From NCBI GenBank assembly GCA_014859105.1, contig JACUUX010000019.1, positions 1 to 44,361 of the forward strand: a stretch of 44,361 nt of DNA. The letters run 5' to 3'. The DNA is from Nitrospirota bacterium (GTDB lineage Bacteria > Nitrospirota > Thermodesulfovibrionia > Thermodesulfovibrionales > SM23-35). This document shows positions 21,132 to 26,900 of this stretch, one piece after another. Both the position numbers and the translations under genes were made by a program. The notes under the pieces are model-generated. The model was not told the DNA's origin, ran no database searches, and was given only the letters and a program-made list of their open reading frames with translations. Positions within the stretch are counted from its first letter, which is position 1; the number at the start of each line of letters is the position of its first letter.

Positions 21132-22079
21132 CTATACAAAGAGTGAACTTATAGAGGATTCCTCATGAATCCTTCTGACAGCCTCTCCAATCAGAGATGC
21201 AATGCTCAAAACTGTAATCTTTTTGCACCTTTCTGTTTTGCTGTCAAGCGGTATTGTATTTGTTACAATAAGCTCTTCTATAACAGAATTATTCACTTTT
21301 TCAACTGCTGTACCTGAAAGTACTGCATGTGTACATGCAGTAATCACCTTTTTAGCACCTTTTTCCTTCAGGGCTGACGCAGCCTGAATGGTCGTACCAC
21401 CAGTATCAATCATATCATCGAGTATAATAGTATTTTTGTTTTCAACGTCGCCTATTACATTCATTATCTGTGAAATATTTGCAGCCTCACGTCTTTTGTC
21501 AATAATCGCTATTGAGGACTGTAATTTTTTTGCGAATGCCCTTGCCCTTTCGACTCCTCCAGCGTCAGGTGAGACAATAACAAGATCCTTATTTTTATTA
21601 TATTTTTTCTCTACATAATCCAGGAGAACAGGAGAGGCGTAAAGGTTATCAACAGGGATATTAAAGAAACCCTGTATCTGAGCTGCATGAAGGTCAATGG
21701 TAAGAATTCTGTTTGTACCCGCAGCGGTTATCAGGTCAGCAACGAGCTTTGCGGATATCGGGACCCTCGGTTGAACCTTCCTGTCCTGTCTTGCGTAGCC
21801 ATAATAGGGTATAACGGCTGTTATTCTACCCGCCGATGCCCTTTTGAGTGCATCTACCATCAGCAGGAGTTCCATAATATTACGGTTCACCGGCATACAG
21901 GTAGGTTGCAGAACAAATAAATCCGCGCCCCTGACATTCTCGTTTATTTGAACCATAATCTCACCATCACTGAAGTCTGTAACAGTGGCGTCTGCTAAAG
22001 GAATATCCAGATATTTTACAATTTCTTGTGCCAGTTTCTTATGTGCATTACCAGTAAAAAGTTTGACCCCCTCAGGCAT
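21132..22079 (-). CDS. prs: Ribose-phosphate pyrophosphokinase
   Basis: Prs makes PRPP from ribose 5-phosphate and ATP, feeding purine, pyrimidine, histidine and tryptophan synthesis. The 315-residue protein has IPYYGYARQDRKVQPRVPIS (about 94-113) with the ATP-binding RQD, TIDLHAAQIQGFF (about 128-140), VVSPDAGGVERARAFAKKL (about 169-187), and the PRPP loop ILDDMIDTGGTT (about 218-229). The ribosome site GGGGGAAAA precedes ATG. It is downstream of tRNA-Gln and upstream of rplY. Confidence 0.97.
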   Translation of the reverse strand: MPEGVKLFTGNAHKKLAQEIVKYLDIPLADATVTDFSDGEIMVQINENVRGADLFVLQPTCMPVNRNIMELLLMVDALKRASAGRITAVIPYYGYARQDRKVQPRVPISAKLVADLITAAGTNRILTIDLHAAQIQGFFNIPVDNLYASPVLLDYVEKKYNKNKDLVIVSPDAGGVERARAFAKKLQSSIAIIDKRREAANISQIMNVIGDVENKNTIILDDMIDTGGTTIQAASALKEKGAKKVITACTHAVLSGTAVEKVNNSVIEELIVTNTIPLDSKTERCKKITVLSIASLIGEAVRRIHEESSISSLFV

Positions 22080-22112
22080 TTTCCCCCCTTAAAATCAATG
22101 ATTAATTTCTGC

Positions 22113-22187
22113 TGGCTGGGGCGGGAGGATTCGAACCTCCAAATGGGAGATCCAAAGTCTCCTGACTTGCCGTTTGTCTACGCCCCA
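22113..22187 (-). tRNA. tRNA-Gln (anticodon TTG)
   Basis: The minus strand folds into a full cloverleaf. Acceptor TGGGGCG pairs with CGCCCCA, the anticodon arm is GGAGA-CTTTGGA-TCTCC with anticodon TTG, and the T arm is GGAGG-TTCGAAT-CCTCC. The discriminator is G and CCA is encoded. The T at position 1 and TTG anticodon identify glutamine. It lies between ispE and prs on the same strand, a frequently seen order, and may be processed from their common transcript. Confidence 0.95.
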
Positions 22188-22262
22188 AACATAACGAATT
22201 CCAATAAGCAAATTCCAATTTGCAAATTTTTATTAATACAAACGCATTTATTTTTTACATTT

Positions 22263-22328
22263 TTGTCATTCCCGCTTGTCGGGAATCTTTCTTTTTCAGA
22301 AGGATTGCGGGCAAGCCGCAATGACAGC
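22263..22328. repeat. GTCATTCCCG palindromic repeat between ispE and tRNA-Gln
   Basis: TGTCATTCCCGCTTGTCGGG is followed by AATCTTTCTTTTTCAGAAGG and the inverted GCGGGCAAGCCGCAATGACA. It is a simple two-arm copy of the family seen elsewhere in the window, without the long flanks of copies A-D. Confidence 0.6.
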
Positions 22329-22371
22329 ATAACAGCATTTAGTACGTTTATATTAATTATTAGTTATATAC

Positions 22372-23247
22372 CTAAATTATTGTCTGAACAACTGCTATCC
22401 AACAGTTTTTAAACCCCTTCGAAGAACTCTTAGCTGCCTCCATAGAGTCAAATACTCCAAACACTGTTGGTCCGCTTCCGCTCATTGCCGCAATTACAGC
22501 GCCCGATTCACGCATTCTGCTCTTTATCTCACCGATAACAGGGTACTTTTCAATAACTACCTTTTCAAGATCATTATCCAATAAAGTTTCGACAGAACCA
22601 AAAGCCTTATTATTAAAAGCCCGGAGAAAAAGTTTAATATCAACAGGTTTTTTTGTCAACTCAGATTTATTATTATCGTAACATGAGTATGCCCATGCTG
22701 TCGAAACAGATAGGGGGGGTTTTACGAGAAGAAGAAAGATAGAGAAGCTGGCTTTAAACGGAGTTGCCCTGTCACCTTTGCCTTCTATCAGTGCAAGCGG
22801 TCCGCCCAGAAAGAATGGAACATCTGAACCTATTTCAGCAGCAATAGAATTTAATTCTGTCTTATTCAAATTAATTCCCCATAGCTTGTTCAGACCCGAG
22901 AGTGTAAATGCAGCATCGCTGCTCCCCCCTCCAAGGCCGGCACTTACCGGTATATTTTTTTTTAAGATTATTCTTGCCCCTTTCCTGTAAGATGAGTATT
23001 TTTTAAGAAGGGATGCAGCCTTATACACGATATTATTATTAAATGGTATATCCAGATCACATATTATTTCCAGATTGTCGGCATGTTTGAATACCAGGTT
23101 ATCATACAAATTAATACACTGCATCAGTGTAATAATATTATGGTAGCCGTCATCCCGTTTCCCTGTTATTTTGAGAAACCAGTTTATCTTTGCAGGGGCA
23201 GTTAAAGAGACTGATGTGCCGTGGACAGATATTGACTGGATATTCAT
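22372..23247 (-). CDS. ispE: 4-diphosphocytidyl-2-C-methyl-D-erythritol kinase
   Basis: IspE phosphorylates CDP-methylerythritol in the MEP pathway of isoprenoid synthesis. The 291-residue protein is a GHMP kinase. APAKINWFLKITGKRDDGYH (about 18-37) is the substrate loop, with K20 and N22. IPVSAGLGGGSSDAAF (about 100-115) is the ATP-binding glycine-rich motif, and MSGSGPTVFGVF (about 256-267) is the C-terminal GHMP motif. Its ATG overlaps the stop codon of the TPR gene (ATGA), indicating coupling. Confidence 0.96.
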   Translation of the reverse strand: MNIQSISVHGTSVSLTAPAKINWFLKITGKRDDGYHNIITLMQCINLYDNLVFKHADNLEIICDLDIPFNNNIVYKAASLLKKYSSYRKGARIILKKNIPVSAGLGGGSSDAAFTLSGLNKLWGINLNKTELNSIAAEIGSDVPFFLGGPLALIEGKGDRATPFKASFSIFLLLVKPPLSVSTAWAYSCYDNNKSELTKKPVDIKLFLRAFNNKAFGSVETLLDNDLEKVVIEKYPVIGEIKSRMRESGAVIAAMSGSGPTVFGVFDSMEAAKSSSKGFKNCWIAVVQTII

Positions 23248-24971: not shown

Positions 24972-26900
24972 GTGATAAAATCTTATATGAATTTTGTTGA
25001 CGTTCTTTTCCCTGTAAACCTCGGACCTTTAACTTATAGATACAAGGATACACTTTCGGGCAGCATCAGGCCGGGGGTGGTTGTTGCAGCACCCCTTAAA
25101 AACACTATTGCTAAAGGTATTGTCATTGAAAAATCTGCAACAATTCCTTCCGGACAGGCTAAAGAGATTAAGGAAGTTCAGGGTTATGCCCCGTTATTGA
25201 GCATTAATATGATTGAACTCCTGAAATGGATGTCTGAATATTACGCGGCTGAACAGGGGCTTGTCTTAAAGAGCATGCTTCCGATGGAGGCATTTAAGCA
25301 AGTGAAAAAAAGGCCTGGGAAGAACAGGAAAATAATGGGTTACAGTGTGGATATATGTGATGTCGACAGCAGTATCTCGGATGCTGTAATAGACTCGATA
25401 AATAAAAATAAATACAGGGCATTCCTTCTTCATGTCCCATCTTCTGTTTATGAATACTCCTTTATTATCAGGTTACTTGCTGAAATCAAGAATGTAATAA
25501 TCGTTTTGCCAGAACTCTTTCTCATCAATAATCTCTATCCACTTTTAAACGAGATGTTTGGAGAGAGGGTCTGTCTTTACCACAGTGAATTGAGCAGCGG
25601 GACCAGATGCGAATCAATAGAAAGGATTCTGAAAGGTCATGCTGATATTGTACTCGGTACAAGATCTGCTGTTTTTGCTCCTTTGAGAGAAGTCTCCCTG
25701 ATTGCTGTGCTCCATGAACATAGTGATTCATACAAGCAGGAGAGTACGCCATGCTACAGCGGAAGGGACGTAGCGGTAATGAGAGCCTTTTTTGAAAAAA
25801 CAACCGTGTTACTCTCATCTTTCTGCCCATCAGTTAATTCTCTCTTCAATTGTCAGTGGGGCAAATATACTTTATTAAAACCAGCAGACACTGCTGAGAA
25901 GCCGAAAATAAGGATAATAGATATGAGGCATGAAAAACTATCCAGACCTTATCTGTCAAAAACAGTTACAGATAATTCTTTGAAGTATATCAGTAATGAT
26001 AAAAAGGCAATGTTTGTGATAAACAGGAGGGGATATTCAACATTACTCCAATGTATGGATTGCAATTATATAGAAGAATGCCCGAATTGCAGGATTCCGT
26101 TAGTATTCCATAAACATGACATGATAATGAAATGCCATTACTGTGATTACACTTTAAAAAATATTCCGGACAGATGTGGAAGATGCTATGGTTACAATCT
26201 AAAATTGCTCGGCGCAGGGACTCAGAGAATTCAGGAGGATATTGAAGAACTTATGGGAATAAAGACTTTGAGATTCGATAGTGACATGGCACGTAAAAAG
26301 TCAGATTTAAAAGAGATGATGGGCGATATTTTTAATGATGACAGGAAGATTGTTATCGGAACAAAGATCATGACGGGAAAAATAGGGCGGGGCAGGGGGT
26401 TTTCCATGGCTGCTATACTGAATACAGATATTTCTCTTAATATGCCTGATTTCAGGTCTGCAGAGAGGATTTTTCAGGAAATCCTGTCTTTAGCAGACAG
26501 AATAGACCCTGATGGCACGATTTTTATCCAGACAAGAATGCCGCAACATTATCTTTATAAATATCTGAAGAATTATGATTATACTTCGTTTATCAGGGAA
26601 GAATTAAAAAGGCGCAGATCTCTCCGCTATCCTCCGTATTCAAGGCTTATACTGATGAAAATTACAGCTAAAAGGAATTTATCAAAAGACCTTTCAGAGA
26701 TTGTGAAAAGAACAGATAAGACTATTGAAGCCCTCGGTCCGTATTTATCGAGATGTATTAAGGATAAATTAGAATTCAAGATCCTCTTAAAATCACTATC
26801 CCGTGAAAAACTCCATTCAGCAGCAAGAATATTTATTGAAGAGTTCAAGAATGTAAAGGATGTGAAGATAAGAGTTGACGTTGATCCCGTAAAGATTTAA
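24972..26900 (+). CDS. priA: PriA-like primosomal protein with degraded helicase motifs
   Basis: This has the layout of PriA (642 residues, family about 650-730): an N-terminal 3'-DNA-end-binding domain (FVDVLFPVNLGPLTYRY), a helicase-like core, an eight-cysteine zinc region (CMDCNYIEECPNC ... CHYCDYTLKNIPDRCGRC) and a C-terminal domain. Several ATPase motifs are lost. The Walker A GVTGSGKTE of the family is HVPSSVYEY (about 154-162). The DEEH box is LHEH (about 247-250), although SDSYKQ still follows. The motif VI QVAGRAGR region reads SLADRID (about 505-511). GTRSAVFAPL and GTQRIQED remain. The frame is intact, so the protein is probably made but should not hydrolyse ATP. GTG 24972 and ATG 24987 are both possible starts; neither has a clear ribosome site. 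Confidence 0.85.
   Translation: MIKSYMNFVDVLFPVNLGPLTYRYKDTLSGSIRPGVVVAAPLKNTIAKGIVIEKSATIPSGQAKEIKEVQGYAPLLSINMIELLKWMSEYYAAEQGLVLKSMLPMEAFKQVKKRPGKNRKIMGYSVDICDVDSSISDAVIDSINKNKYRAFLLHVPSSVYEYSFIIRLLAEIKNVIIVLPELFLINNLYPLLNEMFGERVCLYHSELSSGTRCESIERILKGHADIVLGTRSAVFAPLREVSLIAVLHEHSDSYKQESTPCYSGRDVAVMRAFFEKTTVLLSSFCPSVNSLFNCQWGKYTLLKPADTAEKPKIRIIDMRHEKLSRPYLSKTVTDNSLKYISNDKKAMFVINRRGYSTLLQCMDCNYIEECPNCRIPLVFHKHDMIMKCHYCDYTLKNIPDRCGRCYGYNLKLLGAGTQRIQEDIEELMGIKTLRFDSDMARKKSDLKEMMGDIFNDDRKIVIGTKIMTGKIGRGRGFSMAAILNTDISLNMPDFRSAERIFQEILSLADRIDPDGTIFIQTRMPQHYLYKYLKNYDYTSFIREELKRRRSLRYPPYSRLILMKITAKRNLSKDLSEIVKRTDKTIEALGPYLSRCIKDKLEFKILLKSLSREKLHSAARIFIEEFKNVKDVKIRVDVDPVKI

Follow-up and report, generated by a model that had tools for sequence, protein, structure and literature searches.

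The window analysed here, a stretch of 44,361 nucleotides from a Nitrospirota genome, carries an open reading frame at 24972-26900 on the forward strand, which encodes 642 residues without a stop or frameshift. It matches the profile TIGR00595 from the helicase core to the C-terminus with 367.7 bits (cut-off 230.35), which identifies it as PriA. The Pfam domains PriA_3primeBD, Zn_ribbon_PriA and PriA_C are found in it, and in a PDB sequence search the PriA structures are its sole significant relatives. The first-pass annotation began the gene at 24972. The frame is indeed open from a GTG there, but the ATG at 24987 is the likelier start, with M6 corresponding to the initial Met conserved in the family. 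Elsewhere in the window, a tRNA-Gln(ttg) gene is located between ispE and prs (22113-22187, reverse strand), and an overlapping ORF of 128 residues (22026-22412, forward strand) is probably spurious. The features of the gene are the following:

24987..26900, + strand: priA gene without ATPase motifs (ORF and profile matches; also open from GTG 24972)
25002..25283, + strand (residues 11-104): 3' DNA-binding domain, kept (Pfam PF17764, 57.4 bits)
25287..25409, + strand (residues 106-146): short variable linker replacing the absent winged-helix domain
25431..25460, + strand (residues 154-163): former Walker A loop HVPSSVYEYS (alignment)
25656..25685, + strand (residues 229-238): GTRSAVFAPL, kept
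25710..25721, + strand (residues 247-250): former DEEH box, LHEH (alignment)
26052..26186, + strand (residues 361-405): cysteine-rich region with eight zinc-ligand cysteines, invariant in the order
26475..26507, + strand (residues 502-512): former motif VI, replaced, with a 3-residue gap relative to E. coli just before it
26634..26888, + strand (residues 555-639): PriA C-terminal domain, kept (Pfam PF18074)

The motifs were compared in an alignment of the window protein with E. coli PriA and 60 relatives. At Walker A, FLLHVPSSVYEYSF of the window protein aligns to WLLAGVTGSGKTEV of E. coli, gap-free on both sides, and GVTGSGKT is changed to HVPSSVYE. At the DEEH box, VLHEHSDSYKQE aligns to IDEEHDSSYKQQ and DEEH becomes LHEH. 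In motif VI, QVAGRAGRAG is changed to EILSLADRID, with three residues missing nearby. All three signatures of an active SF2 helicase (Walker A, DExH and motif VI) are thus replaced (3/3), and the alignment bears out the first-pass annotation, which had read HVPSSVYEY, LHEH and SLADRID (for VAGRAGR) at these sites in a gene that keeps its frame. Its further statement that the eight-cysteine zinc module, GTRSAVFAPL and the C-terminal core are kept agrees with the alignment and the Pfam matches. The cysteines C361, C364, C370, C373, C388, C391, C402 and C405 are all present and are invariant in 61/61 genomes of the order. The DNA-binding region, also described as kept, is so only in part. The 3' binding domain (PF17764) is retained, but the winged-helix domain (E. 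coli residues 106-178) is absent, with 17 residues in place of the 73 of E. coli.

The loss is common to the whole order Thermodesulfovibrionales, sampled here with 61 genomes (the window genome and 60 relatives) from 13 families and 44 genera. Each genome encodes one full-length PriA with an open frame (61/61). No Walker A or DExH pattern is found in any of these PriAs (0/61), and all 61 show a replaced motif VI when aligned. Motif VI pattern matches in L027 and L032 are regarded as chance hits at other sites of the protein, the aligned motif VI being non-canonical in both. A search for a second, intact priA found none in the window genome, which is rated 100% complete; the weaker matches are helicases of the Mfd, RecG and UvrB type, the last name resting on length and profile region. 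In the sister orders of the same class, Walker A and DEEH or DEEQ are kept in 10/10 PriAs and motif VI in 9/10, and most other sampled families of the phylum keep the ATPase motifs as well. Sequencing error, which had been named as a possible source of spurious substitutions, as well as chimera and chance, are ruled out because the same motif-less state is conserved in 61 genomes across the order. One sister-order PriA (L105, genome G061) has an intact Walker A and DEEQ and a motif VI that reads AEKVGTGE; it may represent an inactive enzyme or a first step towards loss of the motor.

The residues that replace the motifs are themselves conserved. The column of the catalytic Lys of Walker A holds Glu (E161) in 52/61 genomes of the order, H154 is kept in 47/61 and P156 in 46/61, so that these sites appear to be still constrained order-wide. 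In the former DEEH box only the second Glu (E249) is invariant (61/61); near it, Y254 is kept in 60/61 and K255 is also retained. The AlphaFold model of the window protein (pLDDT 91.1, pTM 0.90) shows a full PriA fold, and its top structure matches are all PriA structures. By coverage, the structure that fits best is that of E. coli PriA bound to a fork (8fak_H, Z 34.7, 2.6 Å over 613 residues). A model of an intact PriA used as control also fits 8fak_H best (Z 34.7, 2.7 Å). The idea that the window protein is locked in the fork-bound shape was therefore rejected, and the conformation of the model is uninformative.

Conservation of the replacement stretch could be taken to mean that HAPSxxYE is a new P-loop and that PriA is still an active ATPase with a diverged, non-canonical site. 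We consider this very unlikely. The glycine-rich loop and its Lys/Thr are absent, the Lys column holds a conserved Glu instead, and both the first Asp of DEEH and the two arginines of motif VI are gone. In addition, the helix in the model starts 3 residues after the strand at the former P-loop compared with 5 in the intact control L150. Residual nucleotide binding through a non-canonical site may nevertheless occur. The same conservation, with H154, P156 and E161 in place of the P-loop throughout the order and the invariant second Glu of DEEH, would also fit a neofunctionalised PriA, in which the former ATP pocket serves as a partner site (e.g. for DciA, DnaB or SSB) and provides a novel PriA activity. 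This appears unlikely, though, as the few conserved residues may merely maintain the fold of the lobe, and the predicted fold is that of an ordinary PriA, the intact control matching the same structure equally well.

Selection on the protein was estimated from dN/dS with Nei-Gojobori counts; the figures are indicative, the pairs being non-independent and the intact pairs coming from other lineages. For the whole protein, dN/dS is 0.13-0.24 in 8 close motif-less pairs of the order and 0.07-0.22 in pairs of intact PriAs, and the pooled values are 0.18 and 0.16, respectively. Selection is thus not relaxed over the whole protein, and the alignment and dN/dS check suggested by the first-pass annotation favours its reading. 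Locally the picture is different. The former ATP loop has a dN/dS of 0.278 in the motif-less PriAs versus 0.027 in the intact ones, an about tenfold weaker constraint, and motifs V-VI have 0.137 versus 0.052, an about 2.6-fold relaxation. The 3' binding domain (0.132 versus 0.141) and lobe 2a (0.149 versus 0.151) are unchanged. Such a contrast would be expected of a protein that was freed from its catalytic constraint and otherwise retained.

The relaxed ATP loop, together with a C-terminal domain that is less conserved in the order, could also be a sign of decay, i.e. of an unneeded PriA that drifts and is still in frame only fortuitously or because little time has passed since the loss. Such decay is extremely improbable. 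The full-length frame is open in 61 genomes of 13 families, there is no second copy, the dN/dS of the whole protein is 0.18, the cysteines are invariant, and the fold is predicted with high confidence. The view of the first-pass annotation, that this is a selected non-helicase protein and not a decaying one, is well supported, since the state is fixed in the order, the replacement positions are conserved and the fold is predicted to be intact; copy number and dN/dS point the same way. As the cell's only PriA, with the motif I and II residues lost and purifying selection acting on it, the protein has the sequence features of a pseudohelicase.

PriA proteins that work without a motor have been described before. 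The PriA of D. radiodurans interacts with ssDNA, forks and DnaB although it has neither ATPase nor helicase activity (PMC4504706). The PriAs of D. radiodurans and Deinococcus-Thermus have lost the catalytic residues of motifs I and II, as has the window PriA, and they share with the window genome the lack of a clear priB or dnaT. They differ in extent and context. In Deinococcus the P-loop is degenerate with a Lys to Arg change, whereas in the window PriA the whole P-loop is replaced and the Lys column is mostly Glu; furthermore, motif VI is replaced with the nearby 3-residue gap, the winged helix is missing, and the protein belongs to another phylum in which the sister orders are intact. An engineered counterpart exists in the E. 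coli K230 mutants, which are ATPase-dead with primosome function kept (PMC4752480, PMC10175261). The helicase-dead allele priA300 (K230R) has been used in vivo (PMC4752480), and K230A PriA was used to assay DnaB reloading in vitro (PMC10175261); according to Zavitz and Marians (1992), as cited in PMC4752480, ATPase-deficient PriA mutants assemble active primosomes. These mutants, however, carry one substitution in an otherwise intact enzyme and work with PriB, DnaT and DnaC. Compared with the E. coli and Klebsiella PriA structures (4nl4, 6dcr, 6dgd, 8fak), the window PriA shares the 3' binding domain, the two RecA-like lobes, the eight-cysteine region, the C-terminal domain and the predicted fold, but it lacks Walker A, the Asp of DEEH, motif VI and the winged helix, and it has 642 residues instead of 732.

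Of the partners that a restart factor would need, DnaB is present in the window genome, and so is the loader DciA, which is found in 39/41 genomes of the order. A DciA-PriA link at forks was suggested for Caulobacter (PMC9825169). PriC is above cut-off in 0/41 genomes of the order, and for PriB these 41 genomes give hits below the cut-off only, which are probably ordinary SSB. Based on the presence of DnaB and DciA and on the precedents in E. coli and D. radiodurans, we propose that the protein recognises forks and recruits DnaB without unwinding. It is highly probable, judging from the sequence data, that the sole PriA is a pseudohelicase which would act in fork recognition and DnaB reloading, probably with DciA; the fork-recognition and DnaB-loading role we infer from homologous proteins and from the literature. 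Rather than a new function, it would most plausibly be the restart function of the ancestral PriA minus the motor, for which there is published precedent (PMC4504706). ATP binding and hydrolysis would have been lost early in the order, and purifying selection would since have preserved the protein for a structural part in restart. Its 3' binding domain, motor-less RecA-like lobes and zinc module would recognise an abandoned fork or D-loop, and PriA would then help to recruit DnaB, either by direct contact, as in the published work on D. radiodurans, or by way of DciA. A nascent lagging strand that blocks loading would be cleared by another helicase. Two points speak against this mechanism. The winged helix is missing, so that the fork contacts would be unlike those of E. 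coli, and there is no evident counterpart of PriB and PriC, the helpers in the E. coli model.

In E. coli, priA helicase mutations suppress recG (PMC4752480). Loss of RecG as the driver of motor loss in PriA was considered and found no support, as RecG scores over the cut-off in most motif-less genomes; it is missing in some of them and also in the intact sister family f15. The apparent absences, where only Mfd-level matches are found, concern most of family f3 and part of family f4 within the order, and the sister family f15, all in near-complete genomes.

Most bacteria conserve the PriA helicase, yet E. coli in the laboratory can do without it. That an entire order manages without the PriA helicase motifs bears on the question of why the helicase stays conserved elsewhere, and the intact sister orders, plus a second motif-less group in the phylum, provide natural controls. 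Their comparison could show which fork structures, partners or helicases differ between lineages with and without the PriA motor. Actinobacterial PriA is also described as lacking the helicase motifs. In NCBIfam, the window PriA scores best at 141 bits with the PRK14873 models, which we take to be the actinobacterial PriA set, versus 442 bits with the PRK05580 PriA models; because of this far lower score it is placed outside the PRK14873 branch. Our limited literature search found no on-point paper on a motif-less PriA in Nitrospirota or Actinobacteria. A PriA of this kind is already known, and what is new is the extent of the motif loss, its fixation in an order, the conserved HAPSxxYE and the breadth of its recurrence.

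The second motif-less group is formed by families f29 and f32 of the same phylum (L109-L123, L131), whose PriAs keep the winged helix. Since this domain is kept there and is missing in most intact PriAs of the sister orders, its loss finds no support as a cause or mark of motor loss. The Lys column holds Arg in 9/15 PriAs of the f29/f32 group, compared with Glu in 52/61 in Thermodesulfovibrionales. In a gene tree of 70 sequences, the two motif-less groups fall apart from one another and form a clade each (SH-aLRT 100 for both), which needs two changes; a single joint motif-less clade is not rejected by the AU test (p 0.48). Two losses in Nitrospirota would be the better reading over one, given the intact sister orders and the differences in domain layout and replacement residues; horizontal transfer is possible.

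Motor loss extends beyond Nitrospirota. In the phylum WOR-3, the PriA match begins after the start of Walker A in about half of the sampled genomes. Among 30 WOR-3 PriAs that were fetched, a non-random set with 20 picked for a late profile start and 10 for the best score, 20 lack Walker A and all 30 have the eight cysteines. By comparison, Walker A is present in all of 74 further GTDB PriAs, which were selected with unrelated sequence patterns. The window PriA belongs to a broader trend in which PriA has repeatedly lost its motor, and in many lineages a gene annotated as 'replication restart helicase PriA' is unlikely to encode a helicase. More speculatively, and with low confidence, the PriA motor may have been discarded repeatedly (on two occasions in Nitrospirota, probably on more than one in WOR-3, and in Deinococcus-Thermus), and in Thermodesulfovibrionales the emptied ATP pocket may have become a new conserved surface, formed by HAPSxxYE and the invariant E249, which passes the fork on to DnaB by way of DciA. 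If so, fork restart in this order would be wholly ATP-independent at the PriA step. Among the WOR-3 PriAs (L232-L251 and L138, from genomes G232-G311), Walker A is lost in several distinct forms, and in one of them three P-loop residues and motif VI are deleted and DEE is kept.
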